Below, piece after piece: positions 28,209 through 41,141 of a stretch of DNA of 41,141 nucleotides (position 1 is the first letter of the stretch; every line of letters begins with the position of its first letter). Origin of the DNA: Dehalococcoidales bacterium (GTDB lineage Bacteria > Chloroflexota > Dehalococcoidia > Dehalococcoidales > RBG-16-60-22); assembly GCA_016783105.1 (NCBI GenBank), contig JADHXF010000008.1, forward strand, positions 1 through 41,141. The letters run 5' to 3'. The position numbers and the translations under genes are program-made. The notes below the pieces were generated by a model that did not search any database, was not told the DNA's origin, and saw only the letters and a program-made list of their open reading frames with translations.

Positions 28209-28553
28209 TTACTGAATCCGCAGCACCAGGTCAGCCTGGCCCCAGAGTCGGTCAAGCTGGTAGAACTCCCGCTCTGATGAGGAAAATATGTGCACGATTA
28301 CGTCGCCGTAGTCGAGCAGGAGCCAGCCCGAGTCCGCCGTGCCTTCGTGGTGGATGGGGAGAACCCCATCCTTTTTCAGGCTTTGTTCCGCTTCTTCATA
28401 AATAGCCCGTATCTGCCGCTCGCTCTCTCCGCTGCAGATGACAAAGTAGTCGGCGAAGCTGCACACCTTTCTGGTATCAAGCAGCACAATGTCGCTGGCC
28501 TGCCTTTCACCGGCGGCGTCCACGGCTCTGCGGGCTATTTCTATTCCTTCCAG
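28209..28553 (-). CDS. rsfS: Ribosomal silencing factor RsfS, apparent CTG start
   Basis: This is a 114-aa RsfS/Iojap protein, which binds L14 and blocks subunit joining under starvation. ASDIVLLDTRKVCSFADYFVICSG, DSGWLLLDYGDVIVHIF and REFYQLDRLWG are diagnostic. The first ATG/GTG-type codon (GTG 28523) would cut the N-terminal helix. Family-like residues EGIEIARRAVDAAG extend upstream to a CTG at 28553, and GGGGAGG lies 8 nt before that CTG. I take CTG as the start; ATT at 28556 is the alternative. A TATAAT at 28590-28585 lies upstream. It is divergent from the aromatic operon. Confidence 0.85.
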   Translation of the reverse strand: MEGIEIARRAVDAAGERQASDIVLLDTRKVCSFADYFVICSGESERQIRAIYEEAEQSLKKDGVLPIHHEGTADSGWLLLDYGDVIVHIFSSSEREFYQLDRLWGQADLVLRIQ

Positions 28554-28584
28554 AATTCGGGCCTCCCCAGCTTTGGTACTTAAA

Positions 28585-28620: not shown

Positions 28621-28650
28621 TTGACAAATGATTTTAAGTTGTGCTATGTT
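28621..28650 (+). promoter_or_regulatory. Promoter of the aromatic operon
   Basis: A perfect TTGACA (28621-28626), an 18-bp spacer and TGC TATGTT (-10 at 28645-28650, extended by TG) precede the attenuator leader. The predicted transcript start is near 28657, about 230 nt ahead of the DAHP synthase gene. Confidence 0.75.
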
Positions 28651-28684
28651 TAACATAATAAAAAGCAATTAGTTTTTGGTCGAG

Positions 28685-28765
28685 ATGGTCAGTCAAAAGT
28701 TTAACGCCTATTATTATTTTTATTACTTTTTCTGGCACCCAGGTGCTGGGGAGGGCTTCGTATGA
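28685..28765 (+). CDS. Aromatic leader peptide of the aro operon attenuator
   Basis: A 26-codon ORF (ATG 28685, TGA 28763-28765) encodes MVSQKFNA, then YYYFYYFFW, then HPGAGEGFV. Residues 9-17 are nine consecutive aromatic amino acids (five Tyr, three Phe, one Trp), and two more Phe lie at positions 6 and 25. Such a run by chance just upstream of an aromatic biosynthesis operon is very unlikely. The peptide itself is probably non-functional; its translation senses charged tRNA-Tyr, tRNA-Phe and tRNA-Trp. The ribosome-binding site is weak (GGTCGAG). The antiterminator half-site (28748-28757) is inside its last codons. Confidence 0.82.
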   Translation: MVSQKFNAYYYFYYFFWHPGAGEGFV

Positions 28766-28824
28766 GTTAATTACGGCCAAGAGATAAAGAAATCGGAAAT
28801 GAAGCAAGCAGCAGAGCCCTCCCC
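28748..28824 (+). promoter_or_regulatory. Antiterminator pairing of the aro attenuator
   Basis: GGGGAGGGCT (28748-28757) pairs perfectly over 10 bp with AGCCCTCCCC (28815-28824), extendable by G-U and C-G pairs. The 3' half is also the 5' arm of the terminator, so the two structures exclude each other. A ribosome reaching the stop codon at 28765 would cover the 5' half and favour termination. One stalled on the aromatic run (28709-28735) would leave it free. A small hairpin GCAC-CCAG-GTGC (28735-28746) lies just after the Trp codon. Confidence 0.78.
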
Positions 28825-28838
28825 GGAAGGGCTTTTTT
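28813..28838 (+). terminator. Attenuator terminator
   Basis: AGCCCT (28815-28820) pairs with AGGGCT (28828-28833) around a 7-nt loop, extended by flanking A-T and G-T pairs. It is followed by a run of six T, a classical rho-independent terminator 50 nt before the DAHP synthase start. Confidence 0.85.
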
Positions 28839-28887
28839 ATTTGCCCGTTATTGAAAAAACTAATCGGACAAACTGAGGAGAAAGAAG

Positions 28888-29967
28888 ATGATAATCATGG
28901 ACTCGACAGCAACCAAAGAAGAAATCGCCAACGTGGTGAAGGAAATCAAAAAATTTGGCCTTAAGGCCGATGTCTCGCGGGGCGAGTTCCGGACGGTAAT
29001 CGGGCTGATTGGCGACGAAAGAAAAGCGGACTTCTCTCACTTTGCCACTCTTCCCGGAGTGAAAGAGGCTTTCATGGTAGAAACGCCGTACAAACTGATC
29101 AGCCGGGATTACGGGCGGCGTTTTAACGGTGGGGGTGAATCGCGATTGATACGGGTGGGCGAAGTAACCATCGGTGGCGATGACCTGGTGATTATCGCCG
29201 GACCATGCACCGTTGAAAGCAAATCTCAGCTATTCCGCATTGCCGAAAAGGTAAAGAAGGCCGGGGCTCATATGCTGCGGGGTGGTATCTTCAAACCCAG
29301 GAGCTCTGTCCATTCTTTTCAGGGGCTGGGGGCTAATGGCCGTAATGAAGCGGAAGAGGCGCTGCGCTGGCTGCATGAAGCCGGGCAAAAATTTGAAATG
29401 CCGGTGGTAACCGAGGTGAGGGGTGAGGCGCAGGTTGACCTGGTGGCCGGTTACGCTGATATAATGCAGATTGGTGCCCGCAACATGTACAATCAAGACC
29501 TGCTCGCCAGTGTGGCCAGAGCCGATAAACCGATACTGTTCAAGCGGCATTTCGGCGCCGGGATTGATGAGTTTTTATCTTTCGCCGAATACATGGCAGC
29601 GGAAGGCAACAAGGATATAATATTGTGTGAGCGCGGCATCCTGCCCGTGGGCAAGGGGAAAAACTACACCCGCTATACTTTTGACCTGTCGGCGATTCCG
29701 GTCATTCAGAAGGAGACCTATCTGCCGGTGGTTGCCGACCCCAGCCACGCTACCGGGCGGCAGGACCTTGTTTTCAACATGAGCTGCGCGGCGGTGGCCG
29801 CCGGAGCGTGCGGCCTGATGATTGAGACACACTACAACCCGTCAGAGGCTTTGATTGATGGTATGCAGATGGTGACGCCGGAAGAACTGAAAGAGATTAT
29901 CAGTGCCTGCCGGAAAATCCATAAACTGGTTGCTCAAAAACACAGGGCGAAGGTGTTAACTGGATGA
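28888..29967 (+). CDS. aroF: 3-deoxy-7-phosphoheptulonate (DAHP) synthase, class I-beta
   Basis: This 359-aa enzyme condenses PEP and erythrose-4-phosphate, the first step of the shikimate pathway. Residues 1-70 form the ferredoxin-like regulatory domain typical of Thermotoga-type enzymes. This domain mediates feedback by Tyr or Phe in several relatives, so allosteric control is plausible. The barrel shows IIAGPCTVES, GGIFKPRSSVHSFQGLG, QIGARNMYNQDLL, KRHFGAG and DPSHATGRQDL (metal and substrate residues). AGGAG precedes ATG 28888. It is the first structural gene after the attenuator, and its stop overlaps aroB (ATGA). Confidence 0.96.
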   Translation: MIIMDSTATKEEIANVVKEIKKFGLKADVSRGEFRTVIGLIGDERKADFSHFATLPGVKEAFMVETPYKLISRDYGRRFNGGGESRLIRVGEVTIGGDDLVIIAGPCTVESKSQLFRIAEKVKKAGAHMLRGGIFKPRSSVHSFQGLGANGRNEAEEALRWLHEAGQKFEMPVVTEVRGEAQVDLVAGYADIMQIGARNMYNQDLLASVARADKPILFKRHFGAGIDEFLSFAEYMAAEGNKDIILCERGILPVGKGKNYTRYTFDLSAIPVIQKETYLPVVADPSHATGRQDLVFNMSCAAVAAGACGLMIETHYNPSEALIDGMQMVTPEELKEIISACRKIHKLVAQKHRAKVLTG

Positions 29968-31040
29968 GAAGGATTGATGTGGCCGTCGGCGGTGGAGGCT
30001 ACCCGGTTTATATCGGGCCGGGCACGCTGGCACAGGCAGGTCGCTACTTGAAGGAACTTGGGCTTGCCGGCCGGCTGGTGGTCGTCACTGACGCTACGGT
30101 AAAAAAATTATATGGCGCGGCGCTGTGCCGGGCGCTGGCAGCAGACGGATTTCAGGTCAGTGTTCTTGAGGTGCCGCCCGGTGAGGAACAGAAGTCGCTG
30201 CAAAGTGCCGGCCGACTTTACCAGGAACTGACCGCCGTTCGTGCCGAGAGGACTACACCGATTCTGGCCCTGGGAGGGGGCGTAATCGGTGACCTGGCGG
30301 GCTTTGTGGCGGCCACCTATCAAAGGGGGATACCGCTGGTGCAGCTGCCGACCACACTGCTGGCCCAGGTCGACAGTAGCATTGGTGGCAAGGTGGCGGT
30401 GGACCACGGACAACTGAAGAACATGGTCGGCGCTTTTTACCAGCCGGAAATGGTCATTGCCGATACGGATACATTGAAATCTTTGCCTGGGGAAGAACTG
30501 AAAAACGGGCTGGCCGAGGTTATTAAAGGCGCTGCCATACGTGACGGGCGCTTTTTCTCTTTTCTTGAGGAGAATATGGAGAGGATAAAATCGCTTGATG
30601 AAGCTATTCTCGAGGAGATTGTATATCAGTCGGTAACCATCAAGGCGAACGTGGTGGCGGAGGACGAGCTTGACCTTGGTCTAAGAAATATTTTGAATTA
30701 CGGCCATACCATCGGACATGCCGTTGAGTCGGTCTCCGGTTTCAAGATAAAGCACGGTGAAGCGGTGGCCATCGGCATGGTAGCCGCTGCTCGAATATCG
30801 AACAAAATGGGCTTACTGGATGAAAAAGATGTAGATAGGTTGATAAATGTAATTGAATTAGCCGGGCTGCCCGCTAGGATGCCCGATTTCAGCATTGAAG
30901 CAGTAACGCAGGCGATGCAGCGCGACAAGAAAGTGCGGGAGGGAAAGGTCAGGTTCGTCCTGCTTCAGTCAATTGGAAATGCGGTGGTCACCGATGATGT
31001 GCCTCCGTCTTTAATCAAGGAGGTTTTGGCTCAAAAATGA
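29964..31040 (+). CDS. aroB: 3-dehydroquinate synthase
   Basis: This 358-aa NAD- and Zn/Co-dependent enzyme converts DAHP to 3-dehydroquinate. ALGGGVIGDLAGFVAATYQRG is split by the NAD loop, and PTTLLAQVDSSIGGKVAVDH, GLAEVIKGAAIRD and ILNYGHTIGHAVE (metal ligands Glu, His) are all present. It overlaps the upstream gene by 4 nt (ATGA) and the downstream aroD by 4 nt. Full length. Confidence 0.98.
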   Translation: MRRIDVAVGGGGYPVYIGPGTLAQAGRYLKELGLAGRLVVVTDATVKKLYGAALCRALAADGFQVSVLEVPPGEEQKSLQSAGRLYQELTAVRAERTTPILALGGGVIGDLAGFVAATYQRGIPLVQLPTTLLAQVDSSIGGKVAVDHGQLKNMVGAFYQPEMVIADTDTLKSLPGEELKNGLAEVIKGAAIRDGRFFSFLEENMERIKSLDEAILEEIVYQSVTIKANVVAEDELDLGLRNILNYGHTIGHAVESVSGFKIKHGEAVAIGMVAAARISNKMGLLDEKDVDRLINVIELAGLPARMPDFSIEAVTQAMQRDKKVREGKVRFVLLQSIGNAVVTDDVPPSLIKEVLAQK

Positions 31041-31693
31041 CCGGACTTAAAATCTGTGCCTCCATAGTAAATGATGACCTCGAAGCCGTCAGGCGTGTTG
31101 AGCCGCTGGTTGATTTATACGAGGTGCGAATCGACCTGATTGGCTCCGAATGGAGAGAGGTCGCCGGACAGCTGAAAAAGCCCTGGATTGCCTGCAATCG
31201 GAAATCAGATGAAGGGGGAACCTGGCGGGGTGGCGAGGAAGCAAGGATTGCCGAGCTGCTCAATGCCCTTGAGCTCGGTGCGGAGATAATTGATGTTGAG
31301 CTAAGCACGGAAGGCCTCGGCGACGTGGTGTCACGAATTAAAAAGCGGGCAGAATGCCTGATTTCTTATCATGATGTGGCAAAGACGCCTTCGATTGATG
31401 TGATAAAGGGACTGGCCAGGAAGCAGCTTGCCGCCGGGGCTGACATCTGTAAGGTGGTTACCACGGCACAGCAATTCGAGGACAACGTGAGCGCCCTGCG
31501 GCTTATTCGAGAGTTTCCTGAAGAGAGAATTATCTCGTTTGCCATGGGGCCGCTTGGCCTGGTGAGCAGGATTCTCTGTCCGCTGGTTGGCGGCGAATTC
31601 ATCTACGCTGCCATTGAAACAGGTAAGGAAGCGGCATCGGGGCAGTTAACGGTGAGCGACCTGCGGGAAATTTACCAGATGGTGAAGCGATGA
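31037..31693 (+). CDS. aroD: 3-dehydroquinate dehydratase, type I
   Basis: This 218-aa class I (Schiff-base) dehydratase makes 3-dehydroshikimate. The catalytic histidine lies in CLISYHDVAKTPS and the Schiff-base lysine in ADICKVVTTAQ; SFAMGPLGLVSRIL follows near the C-terminus. It is shorter than the E. coli enzyme but typical of compact bacterial and archaeal versions. ATGA overlaps at both ends indicate translational coupling. Confidence 0.97.
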   Translation: MTGLKICASIVNDDLEAVRRVEPLVDLYEVRIDLIGSEWREVAGQLKKPWIACNRKSDEGGTWRGGEEARIAELLNALELGAEIIDVELSTEGLGDVVSRIKKRAECLISYHDVAKTPSIDVIKGLARKQLAAGADICKVVTTAQQFEDNVSALRLIREFPEERIISFAMGPLGLVSRILCPLVGGEFIYAAIETGKEAASGQLTVSDLREIYQMVKR

Positions 31694-32553
31694 GTGCCAT
31701 AACTGGAAAAACAAAGGTCTGCGGGATAATCGGCGACCCCATCGAGCACAGCATGTCGCCGGTGATGCATAACGCGGCCTTTAAAGCTTTAGGCCTCGAC
31801 TATGTCTACTTTCCGTTTCACGTGCAGCGGGGGGAACTGCCCGGTGCGATAGCCGGCATAAGAGCTTTAAATGTCGTCGGCCTGAACGTAACCATACCGC
31901 ATAAAGAGGCGGTGATACCACTTTTGGACAGGCTGGAGCCGCTGGCGGAGAGGATGGGGGCGGTGAATACCATTGTCAATGAGGGCGGGTTGCTCACCGG
32001 ACACAATACTGACGCCCCCGGCTTTATGCAGGCGCTGCGGTCGAAAGGCATTGACCACGAAGGCAAGAGTATCCTCATACTGGGTGCCGGCGGTGCCTCG
32101 AAGGGCATCTCCTTTATCCTGGCCGAGGCCGGCGCCAGTCTGGTCATACTGAACCGTACTGTAACCAGAGCAGAGGAGCTGGCATCGCAGATTGCGCAAT
32201 ACTATCATCGGAGACCCGAAGCGTTGACATTAAGTGAGGAAAACCTGGCCAGGGGGCTTGATGGGGCCGATGTTCTGGTCAATACCACCAGTGTGGGCAT
32301 GGTTCCCGATGTCAACCAGACCCCTGTGCCTGCCAGCCTGCTCAATCACAATCTGGTGGTTTGCGATATCGTTTACAATCCCCTGGAAACAAAGTTGCTT
32401 CGAGAGGCCAAAGTGGCTGGTGCCCGGACCATAGACGGGCTGGATATGCTCGTCTGGCAGGGCGCGCTGGCTTTTGAGAAGTGGACCGGCCAGAAAGCAC
32501 CGTTTGAAGTCATGAAACAGGCAGCGATAAAGGCGTTAGGATATGAAAAGTAA
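31690..32553 (+). CDS. aroE: Shikimate dehydrogenase
   Basis: This 287-aa NADP-dependent enzyme reduces 3-dehydroshikimate to shikimate. GDPIEHSMSPVMHNAAF (substrate loop with SMSP), NVTIPHKEAV (catalytic Lys), GHNTDAPGF and the nucleotide-binding ILGAGGASKGISF are clear, as are VNTTSVGM and DGLDMLVWQGALAFE. It overlaps aroD by 4 nt and aroK by 11 nt. Confidence 0.98.
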   Translation: MSAITGKTKVCGIIGDPIEHSMSPVMHNAAFKALGLDYVYFPFHVQRGELPGAIAGIRALNVVGLNVTIPHKEAVIPLLDRLEPLAERMGAVNTIVNEGGLLTGHNTDAPGFMQALRSKGIDHEGKSILILGAGGASKGISFILAEAGASLVILNRTVTRAEELASQIAQYYHRRPEALTLSEENLARGLDGADVLVNTTSVGMVPDVNQTPVPASLLNHNLVVCDIVYNPLETKLLREAKVAGARTIDGLDMLVWQGALAFEKWTGQKAPFEVMKQAAIKALGYEK

Positions 32554-33070
32554 CATTGCCCTCATCGGTTTTATGGGGACGGGAAAGACGGCGGTGGGCA
32601 GATTGCTGGCCGAAAAGCTGGGCAGGGGTTTCATCGAGCTGGACGCATTGATAGAACAGATAGCGGGAAAGACCATCCCCGAAATTTTTGCGAAGGACGG
32701 GGAAACCGCTTTCCGCGAACTTGAGATTGAGGCGACCAGAGACGTGGCGGGGAAGGAAAACACGGTGGTGGCCTGCGGCGGCGGCGTTGTCCTGAACCAG
32801 ATAAACATCGACCGACTGAGAAAGCACAGTGTGATTGTTTATCTCACTGCATCGCCTGAAGCGATTTTGAAGAGGACTTTATCGGATACAAATGAGAGGC
32901 CGCTGCTGGTGGCGGAAGACAAGACGGGAGAGGTGAGAAAACTTTTAGAGTTCAGGCAGCCGTTCTATGAGCGCGCTGCTGACATAACTGTGGACACTTC
33001 CGGGCTGGAAGTGGCAGGGGTGGTTGAACAAATAATAACCGGATTAAAAGAGAATGAAAATTACCATTGA
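32543..33070 (+). CDS. aroK: Shikimate kinase
   Basis: This 175-aa NMP-kinase-fold enzyme phosphorylates shikimate at O3. It has the P-loop FMGTGKTAVGRLLAE, ELDALIEQIAGKTIPEIF (shikimate and Mg site), FRELE and the Walker-B-like VACGGGVVL, with the lid arginine in TNERPLL. It overlaps aroE by 11 nt and aroA by 17 nt. Confidence 0.97.
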   Translation: MKSNIALIGFMGTGKTAVGRLLAEKLGRGFIELDALIEQIAGKTIPEIFAKDGETAFRELEIEATRDVAGKENTVVACGGGVVLNQINIDRLRKHSVIVYLTASPEAILKRTLSDTNERPLLVAEDKTGEVRKLLEFRQPFYERAADITVDTSGLEVAGVVEQIITGLKENENYH

Positions 33071-34316
33071 GGGAAGTGACATCAGAGGCAAGGTGACCGC
33101 GCCTCCATCCAAGAGCTATACCATAAGGGGCCTGATGTGCGCCGCACTGGCTCGCGGAGAGAGCCAGATAATAAATCCGCTGTGTGCGGATGATACCGAG
33201 GCAGCGGTGCGGGTGCTGGGCAACATCGGTGTGGGCGTTGAGCGGTCGGAAGACATCTGGCGAGTCAGAGGCGGTAACTTCAGACAGCCTGACGCTGACC
33301 TCTGCTGCGGCGACTCGGCGGCGACGCTGAGGTTCATGACCGCGATATGCTCGATAGTCCCGGGAAGGTGCCATCTGACGGCGGGCGCTTCGCTGGCCAG
33401 GAGGCCGGTTGAGCCGCTGGTGAAGGCGCTGCAGCGCCTGGGCGTGGATTGCTCTGCAAATGGTGGCGTGGCGCCGGTGGTGGTCAACGGAGGGAGGTTA
33501 AGAGGTGGGGATACCGAGCTGCCCGGCGATGTCAGTTCCCAGTTCGTTTCGGCGCTGTTGCTGGTCTCGCCGTTAGCCGAGGAAGGGATGCGCATCAGGT
33601 TGACCACGCCTCTGGAATCAAAGCCCTATGTGGCCATGACCCTTGAATGCATGGCGAAATTCGGCGTAAAAGTGGCAGTATCCGAGAATATGGACGATTT
33701 TCGCACGTCCCCGCAGAAGTACCAGCCCGGCAGGTATGAGGTGGAAGGCGATTGGTCGTCGGCCTCGTACTTCCTGGCGCTGGGCGCGGTCTCGGATGGA
33801 GTGGAGATAGATAACCTGAACCCGGAGAGCCTGCAGAGCGATAAGTTTATGCTGGCATTCCTGAGCCAGATGGGCACAGATATGAATGTATCACCGCATG
33901 CTATCAGGGTAAAGAGTTCAAGGCTGAAGGCGCTGCGCGCCGATTTGTCCAATTGCATTGACCTTCTGCCCACCATGGCCACTCTGGCGGCGGTGGCCGA
34001 GGGAACCAGCGAGCTTGAAGGCATTGGCCGGGCACGGCTAAAAGAATCGGACCGCGTGGCTGCGGTTCGGGAGGGCCTGGAGAGGATGGGGGTGAAGGTG
34101 GTTGCGGAAAAGGACAGGATGGCCATCACGGGCTCGAAGCTGAAAGGTGCGGTCATTGACAGCCACGATGACCACCGTGTTGCCATGGCCTTCAGCGTCC
34201 TGGGCACACGGGTGGGGAACACCGTGATAAATGGCGCAGAATGCGTCAACAAGACATTTCCTGGATTCTGGGATATACTAAGAAACATTGGAGGCAGGGT
34301 GAAGGTAGATGGGTGA
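33054..34316 (+). CDS. aroA: 3-phosphoshikimate 1-carboxyvinyltransferase (EPSP synthase)
   Basis: This 420-aa enzyme joins shikimate-3-phosphate and PEP. The N-terminal APPSKSYTIRGLMCAALA, GDSAATLRFMTAI, LPGDVSSQFVSALLL, DLLPTMATLAAVAEG, LKESDRVAAVREGLERMG and DSHDDHRVAMAF motifs show a complete two-domain enzyme. The loop reads CCGDSAATLRF where many enzymes have G-N-(A/S)-G-T, a sign of divergence in the PEP/glyphosate loop. It overlaps both neighbours (17 and 8 nt). Confidence 0.96.
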   Translation: MKITIEGSDIRGKVTAPPSKSYTIRGLMCAALARGESQIINPLCADDTEAAVRVLGNIGVGVERSEDIWRVRGGNFRQPDADLCCGDSAATLRFMTAICSIVPGRCHLTAGASLARRPVEPLVKALQRLGVDCSANGGVAPVVVNGGRLRGGDTELPGDVSSQFVSALLLVSPLAEEGMRIRLTTPLESKPYVAMTLECMAKFGVKVAVSENMDDFRTSPQKYQPGRYEVEGDWSSASYFLALGAVSDGVEIDNLNPESLQSDKFMLAFLSQMGTDMNVSPHAIRVKSSRLKALRADLSNCIDLLPTMATLAAVAEGTSELEGIGRARLKESDRVAAVREGLERMGVKVVAEKDRMAITGSKLKGAVIDSHDDHRVAMAFSVLGTRVGNTVINGAECVNKTFPGFWDILRNIGGRVKVDG

Positions 34317-35397
34317 CAGTCTGGGGAAGCTTTTCACCATCACCGGCTTCGGTGAGAGCCACGGCGCCTGTATGGGTGTGGTGGTTGACGGCTGCCCGGC
34401 AGGCCTACCTCTCGCTGAGGCGGACATCCAGCCGGAGGTAGAGAGAAGGCGGCCAGGAGCCGCCGGCACCACAGAGCGGTGGGAGCCGGATAAAGTGGAG
34501 ATAACCTCCGGCGTCTACGACGGGCATACCACCGGTGCTCCCATCTGCATGCTCACCTGGAACAAAGACATTGATTCCGGGGTCTACAAGAAAAATCGGT
34601 TTGCCCTCCGTCCCGGCCATGCCGACTATACCGCCTTCATGAAATATGGCGGATTCAACGATTTCCGTGGCGGGGGCCGGTTTTCGGGGAGGATAACCCT
34701 GGCCTATGTCATGGCCGGGGCAATCGCCAGGAAGTTAATCGGACGCCTGGGCATTGATGTCTTCGCCCACACTGTTGCCATCGGTGGTATAAAAGCCCGG
34801 ACGCTGGAACTGGCCAGTATCAAGGGAAAAGCTGAAAGGGACCCGCTGTGGTGTGCCGACCCGGAAGCTGCCGACAAAATGGCCCGATTGATAGAGAAAG
34901 CGCGGGAAGAAAAAGACAGCCTGGGCGGTGTTATTGAGGGCATTGCCCTGAATGTACCTGTCGGACTGGGCGAGCCTGTTTTCGATAACCTCGATGGGGA
35001 GCTATCGAAAGCCCTGTTCGCTATTCCGGCGGTCAAGGGAGTGGAGTTCGGGGCTGGCTTTGCTGTCGCTGATATGAAAGGCTCGGAAAATAATGACCTT
35101 TACGATATAAGAGATGGGAAAATCGTTACCCGCACCAACAACGCCGGCGGGGTGCTGGGTGGCATCAGCACCGGCATGCCGGTACTCGTCAGGGTGGCCG
35201 TCAAGCCGACCGCCTCCATCGCCAGAAGTCAGGAAACGGTAGATATTCAAAAGATGGCAGAAACAAATCTCACGGTGACGGGCCGACATGATACCTGCAT
35301 CGTTCCCCGGGCAGTGCCGGGGGTGGAGGCGATGATGGCGGTGACCATATGCGACTTTGCCCTGCGGGCAGGGCTTATAACGAGGGTGTTGACATGA
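34309..35397 (+). CDS. aroC: Chorismate synthase
   Basis: This 362-aa FMN-dependent enzyme converts EPSP to chorismate. [19 protein letters not shown] near the N-terminus, [27 protein letters not shown] and [17 protein letters not shown] are family signatures; [18 protein letters not shown] lies at the end. It overlaps aroA by 8 nt and pheA by 4 nt (ATGA). Confidence 0.98.
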
Positions 35398-36476
35398 GCC
35401 TTGAAGAGCTACGGAAAAAGATTGATGACGTTGACGCCAGAATCGTCGAGCTTATCGGCGAGCGGATACGCATTGCTGAGGAGATAGGCAGGGACAAGCG
35501 GGCAAAGGGAAGCTCGATTGAAGACCGGGAAAGAGAAAAGAAGGTGCTGGAGAATGTCAAAAGCATTGCCAGAAAGCAAAATATCGACGTTGACGGGAGA
35601 GAACTGGAAAATATCTATGAGCGCATCATCTCTGCCTGCAAAAATAAAGAGGGCGTTACGGTTGCCTTCCAGGGCGAGGCGGGCGCTTACAGCGAGGAAG
35701 CCGCATTTCAATTCTTCGGTACGTCAATAGCGCTCAGGCCCCACGAGACGCTGGAAGAAGTCTTCAAATCGGTGGAGGAGGAAGGGGTGCAATTCAGCGT
35801 CGTGCCGGTGGAAAACTCGCTGGAAGGGAGTATTAATCGGGCCTACGACCTTATGCTGGAATCAGGTCTCCGCGTATGTGGCGAGACCGAGCTGAGAGTA
35901 ATCCACTGCCTCATTGCCGGCCCTGACGCCAATCTGGATACGGTGAAGAAGGTCTACTCGCATCCTCAGGCACTGGGACAGTGCCGCAGCTTCCTGAAGC
36001 ACCTGAACGCGACACTGATTTCCAGCTATGATACTGCGGGCAGTGTCAAGATGATCAAGGAACAGGGGTTAACGGACAGCGCGGCCATCGCCAGCGCCCG
36101 GGCCGCCGAAATCTATGGCATGAAGGTCATCGCCAGAGAGATAGAGGACAACCCCAACAATTTCACCCGCTTTTTCATCCTGGCCGGGAAAGACGCGCCA
36201 CCAAGCGGGCAGGATAAAACCTCGATTGTTTTCTCAACCAAGAACCAGCCAGGCGCACTGTACGAAGCGCTGGGTGAATTTTCCCGTCGCAATATAAACC
36301 TGAGCAAGCTGGAATCCAGGCCAACGCGGCAAAAGCCCTGGCAGTACAATTTCTACCTCGATTTCGAAGGTCACCGCGAGGATGCCGCCGCCCGCGAGGC
36401 ACTGGCGAATGTGGAGAAACTGTCAATTTTCCTCAAGGTACTGGGTTCGTATCCGAAGGCAAAAGGACGATTTTGA
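35394..36476 (+). CDS. pheA: Bifunctional chorismate mutase / prephenate dehydratase (P-protein)
   Basis: This 360-aa protein has three modules. Residues 1-85 are an AroQ chorismate mutase (LRKKIDDVDARIVELIGERI). About 88-265 is the prephenate dehydratase (VAFQGEAGAYSEEAA, VPVENSLEGSINRAYDLM, NPNNFTRFFIL). About 275-350 is an ACT domain with PGALYEAL and LESRPTRQKPW, the GALV/ESRP-type Phe-binding motifs, so feedback by phenylalanine is likely. The frame is open from 35349, but the ATG at 35394 overlaps the aroC stop as ATGA and gives the family N-terminus. Confidence 0.96.
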   Translation: MSLEELRKKIDDVDARIVELIGERIRIAEEIGRDKRAKGSSIEDREREKKVLENVKSIARKQNIDVDGRELENIYERIISACKNKEGVTVAFQGEAGAYSEEAAFQFFGTSIALRPHETLEEVFKSVEEEGVQFSVVPVENSLEGSINRAYDLMLESGLRVCGETELRVIHCLIAGPDANLDTVKKVYSHPQALGQCRSFLKHLNATLISSYDTAGSVKMIKEQGLTDSAAIASARAAEIYGMKVIAREIEDNPNNFTRFFILAGKDAPPSGQDKTSIVFSTKNQPGALYEALGEFSRRNINLSKLESRPTRQKPWQYNFYLDFEGHREDAAAREALANVEKLSIFLKVLGSYPKAKGRF

Positions 36477-36485
36477 GGTGCATAT

Positions 36486-37355
36486 TTGAAGGTTGCCATA
36501 ATCGGTGGTTCGGGGAAGATGGGGCGGTGGTTTGCCCGCCATCTGCGTGCAGAGGGCGACGACGTGGTAATCAGTGGCCGAACCGAAAGCAAAGTCTCGG
36601 AAACCAGGCGGGAGCTGGGTGTTGACGCTGCTTCAAGTGTAGAGGCGGTCAAAGACGCCGACGTTATACTGCTTTCGGTGCCGATAGAGACTTTTGAGGA
36701 CATCGTTGCCGAGCTGGCCCCCCATATCCAGCCGGGACAGGTGGTGGTTGATGTTACCTCGGTTAAGGTCATGCCCGTGGCCGCCATGCACCGGCACCTG
36801 AAGGCCAGACTGGTACTGGGGACACACCCGCTCTTTGGTCCGGGGGCGAAAGGGATTACCGGCCAGAACTTTGTATTAACGCCAACGAACAGTGAGGAAG
36901 AGGCGCTGGCTGAGAAGGTCAGAGGTTATCTGGAAACAAGGGGTGCCAGAGTCAGCCTGATGACGCCTGAAGAACACGACGATAAAATGGCCGTCATTCT
37001 CGGGCTCTCTCATTTTATTGCCGTGGTGGCTGCCGATACGCTCATCAGCTCGAACAAGGTCGCACCGCCAACGGCGCTCGGCGGCATCACCTATAAGGTA
37101 CTGCTTACCCTGGTGGAAAGTGTTATTTCGGAGAATCCGGAGCTTTATGCTTCGATTCAGATGAATTTGCCTGGCGTTGCGGAAATTGAGGCACTATTAC
37201 AGAGTAAGGTGGCAGCGTGGGCAGAGCTGGTGAAGAAGAAAGACAGGGACGGCTTTATCCGGCAGATGAAAACGCTGAAAAGCAGGCTGGAAAAAGACAA
37301 TCCCGATTTTGGCAAAGCCTACGAGAATATGTACCGGCTCGCCTCGGGGTTATAG
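36486..37355 (+). CDS. tyrA: Prephenate dehydrogenase
   Basis: This 289-aa NAD(P)-dependent enzyme oxidises prephenate toward the tyrosine precursor. The N-terminal Rossmann motif is VAIIGGSGKMGRWFARHL, then DVTSVKVMPVAAM, LVLGTHPLFGPGAKG and EEHDDKMAVILGLSHF (catalytic-region His). The start is TTG at 36486, supported by GAGGTG upstream. It begins 9 nt after pheA and is the last gene of the operon, ending 3 nt from a convergent gene. Confidence 0.94.
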   Translation: MKVAIIGGSGKMGRWFARHLRAEGDDVVISGRTESKVSETRRELGVDAASSVEAVKDADVILLSVPIETFEDIVAELAPHIQPGQVVVDVTSVKVMPVAAMHRHLKARLVLGTHPLFGPGAKGITGQNFVLTPTNSEEEALAEKVRGYLETRGARVSLMTPEEHDDKMAVILGLSHFIAVVAADTLISSNKVAPPTALGGITYKVLLTLVESVISENPELYASIQMNLPGVAEIEALLQSKVAAWAELVKKKDRDGFIRQMKTLKSRLEKDNPDFGKAYENMYRLASGL

Positions 37356-37786: not shown

Positions 37787-40393
37787 CTATTCCACGTATT
37801 CGAATATTTTCACTTCGGGTACATTACCCACGCCGGCCTGATATGAGGACTCGGGCGACTGATAAACCAGTTTGTAATGCTTTAATTCCTCTAGGGGCAC
37901 CGGGCTGATAAACGGCGATTCGCCAACGATCTGGAACTGCCCCGATTTCTGGCCTGCTATGTAATTGTTTGCCTCTTCATAACTGGGGAAAAATTCGATG
38001 CTATTGACTACCTTGACCGTGCCACCCTGCTGGAATGGCTTTTCTTCGTAGGAAATGACGGCCGTCTGCGCCGGAGTTACCGCCATGCCATCGAAATGGT
38101 ACAGCCTGACCGCCAGTGAGCGGTAGTATTCAGGGTGAAATAGAGTTACCGGGACAAATTTATTTTCCTCCTGGGGCACGAAGTACGTATCAAGGTATTT
38201 TGTTCTTTCCAGTCGTGCCCAGTTTGCCAGTGCCCAGAACTTGCTCGTCGTGGTCTGGTTGTCAAGCATGATATATTTAGCGCCCAGTTTATCGATTATG
38301 GCGCTCTCCGGGATGGTTTCCTGTTCCCATCTTGTTTCCCACTCCACTTCCTGAGATGAGTTTTCGCCCTCGGAAAGGAAAAATCTGGCCACGTGAAACC
38401 CGCCCGGACCCGGAGTGAGGTTAACCGGTCGCTGGGCAATACGGGTGATCCAGTATCCGTGGTCAACCCAGGCCATGACGGCATAACAGGAGTCAGGATA
38501 ATCATATTGTTCACCGGGCAAGGGAGGCTCATAGAGCGCGTAATAGAAATTCGAATCGCCAAAAGGTTCCGGCGTATTTTCCTTCATCCAGTCAAGGGAA
38601 CGTACCCAGGCGTCGGACGGGGCAAAGTGCGCCCCGGAGGCAATGACTTTCGCCGATTTTATACTGGGAAAAAAGATAAGGAGAAAAATAACGATTATTA
38701 CCACAATGATATTTGTATAGTACAGGGCTGAAGAAAATCCGGCTGGCGACCGTTCTTTATGCTTGTCCTTTTTCTGCGGTTCAAGTTTGGGCCTGGAGAA
38801 CTGTAAAAAGCCGAAACCTTGAAAGAATTGCCAGAATATGTTGGCGATGAGCAGTGCTACCAGGATAGCTACTATCGCCGGGGTAATGTTGGAATGGAAA
38901 ACGAGGTAGATAACGGTACCAAGGGAGACGAAAATATTGAGGTGCTTGGCAGAACGGTGAACCCCCCAGTTTATCTTGAGGAATTGCCATGAGAGAAAAC
39001 CGGACAACAGGGCCACATTGATGGCTAAATAGTAGGCAAAGCGACGCTGCCCCAGCGTTGCCAGGAATATTATCAGGCTCCATATTAGTAGAATGTTTAT
39101 CTCGGTGGTAAGTGATTCAGGGAAAATGCTGCTGTTGCCTATTCTGAATTCAGAAACTCTCCTGCCGAGAAAAATACGCAGGATATAGTAAACGATGAAA
39201 TAGAGTAAGAAGATAGAAGTGAGGAAGAACCCGGTGTTGAAGTTTCCCCAGACAAGTTCGAAGGTAAACTCGCCCCTCGGTGCCATAATCGGCTGCATCT
39301 CCAGTATGGTGCGTGATGCGCTCAAGTTAAAAACATCTAACGCGTTTCTCATAAAGTCAGGGTAAATGGCGCGTCCAATGAAAAGGGCCGCCACGCCTAA
39401 CGCTACCAATGTGACGGGGTAATAGAATGATTTAATCTTCCAGGCCGTAAACCTCCTGGATATGAAGTGCAGGATGACTGGAACAGCCGTTGCCATAATC
39501 AGGGACAGCCACGGTATCACGCTGGAAGACTTCGTGGTGAACGTACCGCCGACGAATATCACATATATTATCAAAGCGATAAAAAACGTGGTTGTGCCTG
39601 CCAGCAAGAGGTAACCAGTGCTATTTCGCTTCAGGTGGTCGATGATGAACTGGATAAAAAAGTAAAGAAGGATGATGAAGACAAAGAGCAATCCGCCAAT
39701 CCAGGTGACGAGATAGATTCCCAGGGAGAGACCGGTAAGTAAACTGTAAATTACAGGTTTGCGGATTATTCCCCAGTCCCTGTTCCAGAGATGCTCAGGT
39801 TTCAGGCCGCTTTCCTGTGCCCGCTTGACTGCCATAATGAGAAACATCATGGTGATGGTGGTGAACAGCGTCTCGGCGACGTGGTGGTCGGTGAAGCCCA
39901 GAATCGAGCGCCCCAGGTATTCCCCGGGTAACGTGGCGATTAGACCGGCGGCAATAACCCCGGCTCCACGCCCGAATAGCTCTTTGCCGATGAAATAAAC
40001 AGGGATGACGGTGAGCGCAGCAAGTACAGTGGGGAAATAGACCGAGATGATATCAATGGTGTGCTGAGTTGGTGAGCCGAGGCCGAAGACCCAGATTATA
40101 CCGGCCAGAAGCCAGTCGAAGAACTGGATGTTGCCCAGATTCATGCCAGAGGGATAGAGCAGGTAAGGGTCAAAGTTGATGAGGTTGGGGAAGTTATGCA
40201 CCAGGCTATCCACCAGGCGCATATGAAAGTAGGCATCAACGCTGGAAAACTTGACCCATTCGCCACTGAAAATCTGGTCGTGCGGAAGATAGGCCCGGAT
40301 GAACAGTGAAACGCCAAAAAACAGCACCACGAATAGACCGGCTATAACTCCGGGGGAGAGTCTTTTTTTGGGGCTGGCGCTCTCACCATTCAT
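37787..40393 (-). CDS. STT3/AglB-type oligosaccharyltransferase
   Basis: This 868-aa polytopic enzyme has about a dozen membrane helices in residues 13-580 and a C-terminal exported domain. The first acidic motif is SSVDAYFHMRL (D53), the second FTDHHVAET (D169, H170, H171). The external-loop motif TILE (E365) matches archaeal AglB and bacterial PglB. The sequon-binding WWDYG motif appears as WVDHG (642-646), with V in place of the second W. Such enzymes transfer lipid-linked glycans to Asn in exported proteins. No other glycosylation genes are in the window. It lies 84 nt after rho on the same strand. Confidence 0.9.
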   Translation of the reverse strand: MNGESASPKKRLSPGVIAGLFVVLFFGVSLFIRAYLPHDQIFSGEWVKFSSVDAYFHMRLVDSLVHNFPNLINFDPYLLYPSGMNLGNIQFFDWLLAGIIWVFGLGSPTQHTIDIISVYFPTVLAALTVIPVYFIGKELFGRGAGVIAAGLIATLPGEYLGRSILGFTDHHVAETLFTTITMMFLIMAVKRAQESGLKPEHLWNRDWGIIRKPVIYSLLTGLSLGIYLVTWIGGLLFVFIILLYFFIQFIIDHLKRNSTGYLLLAGTTTFFIALIIYVIFVGGTFTTKSSSVIPWLSLIMATAVPVILHFISRRFTAWKIKSFYYPVTLVALGVAALFIGRAIYPDFMRNALDVFNLSASRTILEMQPIMAPRGEFTFELVWGNFNTGFFLTSIFLLYFIVYYILRIFLGRRVSEFRIGNSSIFPESLTTEINILLIWSLIIFLATLGQRRFAYYLAINVALLSGFLSWQFLKINWGVHRSAKHLNIFVSLGTVIYLVFHSNITPAIVAILVALLIANIFWQFFQGFGFLQFSRPKLEPQKKDKHKERSPAGFSSALYYTNIIVVIIVIFLLIFFPSIKSAKVIASGAHFAPSDAWVRSLDWMKENTPEPFGDSNFYYALYEPPLPGEQYDYPDSCYAVMAWVDHGYWITRIAQRPVNLTPGPGGFHVARFFLSEGENSSQEVEWETRWEQETIPESAIIDKLGAKYIMLDNQTTTSKFWALANWARLERTKYLDTYFVPQEENKFVPVTLFHPEYYRSLAVRLYHFDGMAVTPAQTAVISYEEKPFQQGGTVKVVNSIEFFPSYEEANNYIAGQKSGQFQIVGESPFISPVPLEELKHYKLVYQSPESSYQAGVGNVPEVKIFEYVE

Positions 40394-40477: not shown

Positions 40478-41141
40478 TTACGTCTCCTTGTTCAGGTTGT
40501 CCAGAAATTCAGCATTGGTCTTCGTTTTGCGCATGCGGTCAAGGATGCGCTCGGTGGCTTCAACGTAGTTCGGTGAGTCAGAGGAAATCATGGCGACCAT
40601 GCGCCGCAGCAGCCATATCTTGCTCAGGCTGTTTTCGTCGACGAGCAGTTCTTCCCGGCGTGTGCCGCTGCGCTGTATGTCCATAGCCGGGAAGATGCGG
40701 CGTTCTGACAGCCGCCGGTCAAGGTGCAGCTCCATGTTCCCGGTGCCCTTGAATTCTTCGTAGATGAGTTCGTCCATGCGGCTGCCGGTGTCAACAAGGC
40801 AGGTGGCGATGATGGTCAGGCTGCCGCCCTCGGCGGTGTTGCGGGCGGCGCCGAAGAAGCGCTTGGCGGGGTGGAGCGCCACCGGGTCAATGCCTCCGGA
40901 AAGGGTGCGACCGCTCGAAGGCATCGCCAGGTTGTAGGCACGGGTGAGGCGGGTGATACCGTCCAGGACAATAAACACGTCCTTCCCGCTTTCCACGATG
41001 CGCTTGGCTCTCTCCAGGGCCAGCTCGGCGACGCGGGTCTGGTTCTCCACCTGCTCATCGAAGGTGGCGCCGATTACCTCTCCTTTGACGGAGCGTTTCA
41101 TATCGGTGACTTCCTCAGGGCGCTCCCCGATGAGGCAGACG
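40478..41141 (-). CDS. rho: Transcription termination factor Rho (5' part cut by window edge)
   Basis: The frame is open to the window edge, so only the C-terminal 220 or so residues of this hexameric RNA helicase are present. Recognisable parts are [30 protein letters not shown] (Walker B), [20 protein letters not shown] (Q and R-loop region), [16 protein letters not shown] and [13 protein letters not shown]. The ATG at 41101 is internal, not the start. The C-terminus is complete (stop at 40478). Confidence 0.97.

Follow-up and report, generated by a model that had tools for sequence, protein, structure and literature searches.

The window, by which we mean the whole stretch of 41,141 nucleotides analysed here, contains at 28888-37355 nine close-packed genes, from aroF to tyrA, for the common trunk of aromatic amino acid synthesis and its Phe and Tyr branches. 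Naming these genes singly with Pfam and NCBIfam bears out the original prediction of a nine-gene operon that runs from DAHP synthase to prephenate dehydrogenase and contains no trp genes:

28888..29967, + strand: aroF-type DAHP synthase, the operon's first gene (PF00793; NF006421)
29964..31040, + strand: aroB, 3-dehydroquinate synthase (Pfam/NCBIfam)
31037..31693, + strand: aroD, type I 3-dehydroquinase (Pfam/NCBIfam)
31690..32553, + strand: aroE, shikimate dehydrogenase (Pfam/NCBIfam)
32543..33070, + strand: aroK, shikimate kinase (Pfam/NCBIfam)
33054..34316, + strand: aroA, EPSP synthase (Pfam/NCBIfam)
34309..35397, + strand: aroC, chorismate synthase (Pfam/NCBIfam)
35349..36476, + strand: pheA, chorismate mutase/prephenate dehydratase with an ACT domain (Pfam/NCBIfam)
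36486..37355, + strand: tyrA, prephenate dehydrogenase (Pfam/NCBIfam)

The operon is adjoined by a gene for an STT3/AglB-like oligosaccharyl transferase (37787-40393, minus strand), after which, near the window end, comes the C-terminal part of a Rho gene (40478-41101). On the other side lies rsfS, a ribosome silencing factor gene (28209-28583, minus strand) that is divergent to the leader described below; a plus-strand hairpin at 28352-28371, terminator-like, with a T-run and antisense to rsfS, may mark the end of the ndk transcript or be due to chance. Elsewhere, the minus strand encodes a large bacterial SRP RNA (RF01854, 20006-20268) and a tRNA (1122-1195).

The leader ahead of aroF

The region upstream of aroF contains the following features:

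28621..28650, + strand: sigma-70-type promoter match, TTGACA-18-TATGTT with TG preceding the -10 (sequence; exact TTGACA in 73 of 78 leaders)
28685..28765, + strand: leader peptide ORF of 26 codons plus UGA, MVSQKFNAYYYFYYFFWHPGAGEGFV (sequence; an aromatic mini-ORF is also present in relatives)
28709..28735, + strand: control codons YYYFYYFFW, nine aromatic codons in series (sequence; chance test)
28738..28750, + strand: possible protector hairpin CCCAG/CTGGG, weak, right after the control codons (window z +0.5)
28748..28757, + strand: candidate antiterminator 5' arm GGGGAGGGCT, within the ORF's final codons (sequence; duplex and covariation tests)
28815..28824, + strand: AGCCCTCCCC, candidate antiterminator 3' arm; also the terminator 5' arm plus part of the terminator loop (sequence; duplex test)
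28813..28838, + strand: predicted intrinsic terminator, hairpin (28813-28835) plus T-run (terminator match)

The -35 element occupies 28621-28626 and, after a spacer of 18 nt, the -10 element lies at 28645-28650. The ATG of the leader ORF follows 34 nt past the -10 and an in-frame TTG 25 nt past it; by eye, no clear Shine-Dalgarno sequence was found at this ATG. GGGGAGGGCT is the exact reverse complement of AGCCCTCCCC over 10 bp, and the terminator stem spans 28815-28833, with 8 pairs across 28813-28835 and the T-run next to it. The positions claimed earlier for the promoter, the 26-codon ORF with its nine aromatic codons, the 10-bp antiterminator and the overlapping terminator proved exact, and the antiterminator 5' half does fall inside the last codons of the ORF (28748-28757 within 28685-28765).

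In six frames of the 41-kb window, a 10-codon stretch with at least seven aromatic codons occurs a single time, in the leader ORF, which has nine; among 5000 dinucleotide shuffles of 28621-28887 the maximum was eight per ten, reached twice, and nine was reached by none. The antiterminator duplex of the window is predicted at -25.4 kcal/mol, a value equalled by 0 of 200 shuffles. The fold of the leader as a whole is no more stable than that of shuffled sequences (z -0.21), and the evidence thus rests on the specific alternative pairing rather than on overall stability. No Rfam family matched the window leader at its gathering score, the top sub-threshold score being that of Phe_leader RF01859 (24.3 bits, E 0.049), far under the gathering score of 55.

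Conservation among related DAHP synthase loci

A DAHP synthase search of genome contigs gave 102 confirmed loci, the best 80 of which were taken: nine are archaeal, four have at most 2 nt of upstream sequence, and in 67 it reaches 200 nt or more. A class-level search of 148 genomes, 123 of them with a match, contributed a further ten loci of the same gene type; the remaining three of its 13 best matches were the genomes of L011, L026 and L033 over again. The leader sample comprises 78 leaders, the window's included, and the controls are 26 loci, namely the nine archaeal ones and 17 same-class loci, drawn from 30 class-level loci read, in which the DAHP synthase is at most 49% identical to the window's. 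A quick tree of the DAHP synthases places the 78 leader rows together with the four short-upstream rows in one set, with a support of 100, and the 17 distant rows in another. Within the best 80 of the 102 loci and the class-level search, the archaeal DAHP synthases (L067, L069-L074, L078 and L080; mostly Bathyarchaeota), which have no leader, are 53-63% identical to the window's and hence closer to it than the distant type of the window's own class, which suggests gene transfer.

All 78 leaders have an ORF with four or more aromatic codons in ten, followed by a terminator match, a count that includes a hand-set ORF in L026 and a hand-set terminator in L036; at five in ten both are present in 76. 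Relatives with the same operon and neither aromatic leader nor terminator, which the original prediction had named as evidence against itself, were thus not encountered among the orthologous aroF leaders at the lower threshold. When all three elements were demanded automatically (ORF at four in ten, terminator, and an antiterminator equalled by at most 10 of 200 shuffles), 70 of 78 leaders passed and 0 of 26 controls. The lax ORF threshold alone does not discriminate, some ORF being found at four in ten in 7 of 9 archaeal and 1 of 17 distant controls; at five in ten there is no such ORF in 24 of the 26. ORF and terminator match occur together in 2 of 26 controls (1 of 9 archaeal), and a better-than-shuffled antiterminator was found in none of the 26, L133 offering no room for the test. 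An Rfam scan of the 17 distant-type loci returned one cobalamin riboswitch and no other family.

The order of genes from aroF to pheA is conserved in 38 of the 39 loci whose downstream sequence extends to 7.5 kb or more. In the one that departs from it, L055, aroF (L055:9986-11074) stands alone close to a phosphofructokinase gene and has a leader of its own, with Phe and Trp and no Tyr in the core. L056 (L056:686-1759) looks alike, with a lone DAHP synthase gene, an aromatic leader and a phosphofructokinase gene nearby. Both isolates have a second leader-bearing aroF, which is L049 for L055 and L048 for L056.

A promoter match scoring at least 9 lies ahead of 74 of the 78 leaders, with TTGACA exact in 73. 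The distance from the -10 to the first in-frame start (ATG, GTG or TTG, at least 4 nt from the -10) is 5-9 nt in 26 of these 74, 10-14 nt in 7 and 17-47 nt in 41. With a gap of 5-9 nt translation would begin at or within a few bases of the RNA 5' end, which makes a leaderless start probable, and these 26 may therefore be leaderless mRNAs. Leaderless translation of leader peptides has been reported in Streptomyces, in the account given in PMC8079986.

Aromatic residues make up 79% of the core of these ORFs in frame versus 9% and 16% in the shifted frames, a contrast that is partly built in because the core was picked for its in-frame content. Tyr and Phe are the constant theme, being present in 76 and 74 of the 78 cores, respectively. 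Trp accounts for 57 of 674 core residues; it occurs within or just past the core in 56 of 78 leaders, and Tyr, Phe and Trp are all inside the core in 52. By codon content, the claim that one leader reads the three amino acids together holds for these 52 cores, that of the window included, but is not universal, as Trp is absent in and just after the core in 22. Among the leaders without Trp are the near-identical ones of G043, G079 and G127 (...NYYYFTK...), genomes which we suspect to be Dehalococcoides. Order and length of the peptide vary among the leaders, and the residues after the run vary widely (e.g., GAGEGFV, PGSGLAT, GRAGL, PGGQC and CAWEALV). That the C-terminal residues differ by lineage while the G-rich arm stays points to selection acting on RNA pairing.

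Alternative pairing and the modelled choice

The best duplex between the post-aromatic stretch and the terminator 5' half has a mean z of -3.8 against dinucleotide shuffles over the 78 leaders; no more than 2 of 200 shuffles equal it in 62 of them and no more than 10 of 200 in 72. It is weaker in L030, L052, L122 and L123 (11-16 of 200 as good) and not clearly above shuffles in L033 (35 of 200) and L040 (76 of 200). In a swap test over 69 non-redundant leaders, native pairing gave -18.7 kcal/mol versus -14.9 kcal/mol for swapped partners, and 0 of 5000 permutations were as good; in the controls, the 40 nt immediately before the terminator paired worse natively than when swapped and for the 40 nt ahead of the run native pairing was slightly better, by 0.3 kcal/mol (202 of 5000). 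Separate alignments of arm and terminator, read in the next-best register (the top-scoring one paired the arm with the T-run) and against shuffles that treat the leaders without regard to kinship, gave 604 of 919 cells paired versus 551 (sd 7.5) after shuffling, a total reached by 0 of 1000. Double changes occur in 12 column pairs of the antiterminator register versus 7-10 in slid registers, the totals of registers slid by 1-3 are matched by 33 to 914 of 1000 shuffles, and at four column pairs of the eight-pair core no shuffle attains the observed pairing. The relatives, as the original prediction had anticipated, therefore share the Tyr/Phe/Trp-rich mini-ORF, and the arms covary in both the swap and the alignment tests.

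The leaders thus display three of the hallmarks by which attenuators are recognized, namely a mini-ORF rich in codons for pathway products ahead of a biosynthetic operon, a predicted intrinsic terminator between this ORF and the first gene, and a predicted antiterminator that shares a terminator arm and is maintained by covariation, weakly so in L033 and L040. Sequence comparison establishes the promoter match, the aromatic mini-ORF, the covarying choice between antiterminator and terminator and the tie to one operon. We consider it very likely that the leader is a ribosome-mediated transcription attenuator of the trp/phe type, which would sense the charging of aromatic tRNAs and control the whole aromatic trunk.

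In the proposed mechanism, RNA polymerase would start near 28657 and a ribosome would translate the mini-ORF behind it. When Tyr-, Phe- or Trp-tRNA is scarce, the ribosome would stall in 28709-28735 with its leading edge short of 28748, leaving GGGGAGGGCT free to pair with the emerging AGCCCTCCCC; the terminator would be blocked and the operon read. When all three are plentiful, the ribosome would reach the UGA at 28763 and cover 28748-28757, allowing the terminator to form. A ribosome with a codon in its A site covers about 10 nt beyond that codon. The arm starts 10-17 nt past the last aromatic codon in 66 of 78 leaders (the position of this codon is doubtful in L029 and L039, with distances of 47 and 48), so a stall would leave it just free.

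This choice was modelled as a co-transcriptional snapshot of the 69 leaders, in which a 31-nt ribosome footprint was masked and the RNA ended at the terminator loop. The antiterminator is predicted to form with the ribosome stalled in 62 of 69 leaders and to be blocked with the ribosome at the stop codon in 54, both being the case in 48; in the window its probability is 1.00 when stalled and 0.00 at the stop. In 15 leaders the arm is modelled as free again with the ribosome at the stop, mostly where the ORF extends well beyond the arm, and there the ribosome would have to hide the arm in passing, or a protector hairpin would have to act. Over 69 leaders, hairpins following the aromatic codons have a mean z of -1.5 in stability against shuffles, whereas that of the window shows no such gain (z +0.5). 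Without a ribosome the snapshot favours the antiterminator in 45 of 69 leaders, the window among them, which would make its default state ON, with translation switching the operon OFF; the other 24 may have a trpL-like default OFF. At full equilibrium only 12 of 69 leaders are predicted to switch, including the window (terminator 0.01 when stalled, 1.00 at the stop), and in most of the rest the finished terminator wins whether the ribosome is stalled or not, so that the choice there must be kinetic.

The Trp branch, rival explanations and known systems

Of 51 trpE loci in related genomes, 35 were analysed, the 16 omitted being partial matches or paralogues below the family cut-off, except L099, a partial match above it. 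A T-box core is present in 28 of the 35, and in two sets of loci the Rfam T-box scores at or above its gathering threshold in 10 of 14 and 9 of 16. In L094, L145, L148, L149 and L150 the core is missing and a leader with NNWWWR lies upstream of trpE, L150 showing the end of such a leader where the contig begins or ends. The four whose upstream stretch was read completely have, by eye, a hairpin resembling a terminator, with a T-run, and a promoter similar to that of the aro leaders. The genomes with this Trp leader (those of L032, L113, L114, L053 and L047) fall within one 11-row set of the aroF tree, with a support of 99. L155 and L156 have neither T-box core nor Trp leader. By these matches, trpE has its own predicted sensor in the related genomes, usually a T-box; T-boxes at trpE of Dehalococcoides are reported in PMC2494555, and a passage of PMC2965389 describes switching between such sensors as known in principle.

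In 5 of 39 genomes checked (G127, G043, G079, G183 and G184) trpE has another DAHP synthase gene no more than about 6 kb away, perhaps inside the trp operon. A link between this arrangement and loss of the Trp codons was considered but found no support, since the leaders of G043, G079 and G127 lack Trp but those of G183 and G184 have it. In G174 (C1:1105602-1106951) and G163 (C1:93828-95147) a trpE-like gene that falls short of the trpE cut-off, and is perhaps pabB, shares the strand of the leader-bearing aroF and follows it at about 8 kb, near the expected operon end.

The contribution of Trp is where the main rival reading departs from ours. The attenuator could act as a Tyr/Phe sensor, with the single Trp codon of the window incidental and Trp sensed only by the element of the trp operon. 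In favour of this are the 76 and 74 of 78 cores with Tyr and Phe, compared with 56 with Trp in or just after the core, as well as the T-box or Trp leader that most relatives have at trpE; moreover, in the review's description of the AroR leader of C. glutamicum, limitation of Phe acts and availability of Tyr has no effect (PMC11802643). Nevertheless, Trp makes up 57 of 674 core residues and is the last control codon of the window, the one closest to the arm, and its absence does not track the presence of a DAHP synthase gene beside trpE. We regard the Tyr/Phe sensor as less likely than not.

The remaining alternatives are far less probable. A short ORF before an amino-acid operon would fit in outline an arrest-peptide sensor like TnaC, in which the nascent peptide binds a metabolite and stalls the ribosome; yet aromatic content is kept while order, length and post-run residues diverge, as would be expected from a constraint on RNA pairing rather than on a peptide motif, and this reading is very improbable. 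That the whole-leader fold is no stabler than shuffles might be expected of a plain terminator with a chance AT-rich ORF, or of a stand-alone small RNA, without translation-coupled control, but the frame-specific aromatic conservation, the covariation of the antiterminator and the spacing from codons to arm make this highly implausible. Direct tRNA sensing of the T-box kind, or another riboswitch at aroF, is brought to mind by the T-boxes at trpE of related genomes and is scarcely credible, because the leader has no Rfam match at gathering score, lacks, by eye, the T-box core string and has so far shown no conserved specifier loop or T-box core; T-box RF00230 and other Rfam elements were rejected for the window leader on this ground.

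Leaders of the ilv/leu type, each of which reads more than one end product of a common pathway, are known, and the attenuator proposed here would resemble them in sensing several amino acids, although these are branched-chain and not aromatic. From enterobacterial trpL and pheL, with which it shares competing antiterminator and terminator structures and control codons for the product (as also in the account of PMC11802643), the window leader differs in mixing three amino acids, in governing the common trunk plus the Phe and Tyr branches, and in placing the antiterminator arm inside the end of the ORF. A close counterpart is AroR-aroF of C. glutamicum (Neshat et al. 2014, as cited in the review PMC11802643), a ribosome-mediated attenuator that precedes a DAHP synthase operon and whose small leader peptide contains aromatic codons. 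As summarized there, and thus compared by description rather than by sequence, it has Phe-Tyr-Phe with no mention of Trp and belongs to an actinobacterium; our guess is that the two leaders are of independent origin. The uORFC-13-1 motif upstream of aroF in Acholeplasma likewise combines a terminator with a candidate leader peptide that has one or more Phe codons, but is described from Acholeplasma and environmental DNA of unknown organisms, its description in PMC8632094 mentioning no Tyr/Phe/Trp run. The T-box (RF00230) at trpE of Dehalococcoides also senses tRNA charging, for the linked Trp pathway, but binds the tRNA directly and has no leader peptide (from the account in PMC2494555). A 2010 paper says of leader peptides that none had been demonstrated beyond the Proteobacteria and Actinobacteria until its own Firmicutes case (PMC2965389). 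No published description of this aro leader was found in searches of the open-licence PMC literature, in line with the statement in the original prediction that none was known. The mechanism is already known from trpL, pheL and AroR, while the host group, the scope and the mixed codon set appear to be new.

In all, the element is real and conserved, and it is very probably a ribosome-mediated attenuator. A more ambitious reading joins several steps, and we put it forward tentatively, at slightly below an even chance: the leader would be a three-input OR gate for the whole shikimate trunk, open when any one of Tyr-, Phe- and Trp-tRNA is short; it would be inherited in a clade of Dehalococcoidia, often on leaderless mRNA, with the window's default ON unlike that of trpL; and the same toolkit would have been copied or re-evolved at trpE in one clade, a Trp-Trp-Trp leader replacing the T-box. 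The proposed attenuator, for its part, would extend leader-peptide attenuation to the Chloroflexota group Dehalococcoidia, which include organohalide respirers, and a single leader would guard an entire branched pathway with all its end products. The 69 distinct leaders would form a natural series differing in codon content, arm position, start-site type and modelled default state. At trpE, the swap between two sensors of tRNA charging, the T-box and the leader peptide, could be placed on a tree, so that how such sensors replace each other would become a testable question.
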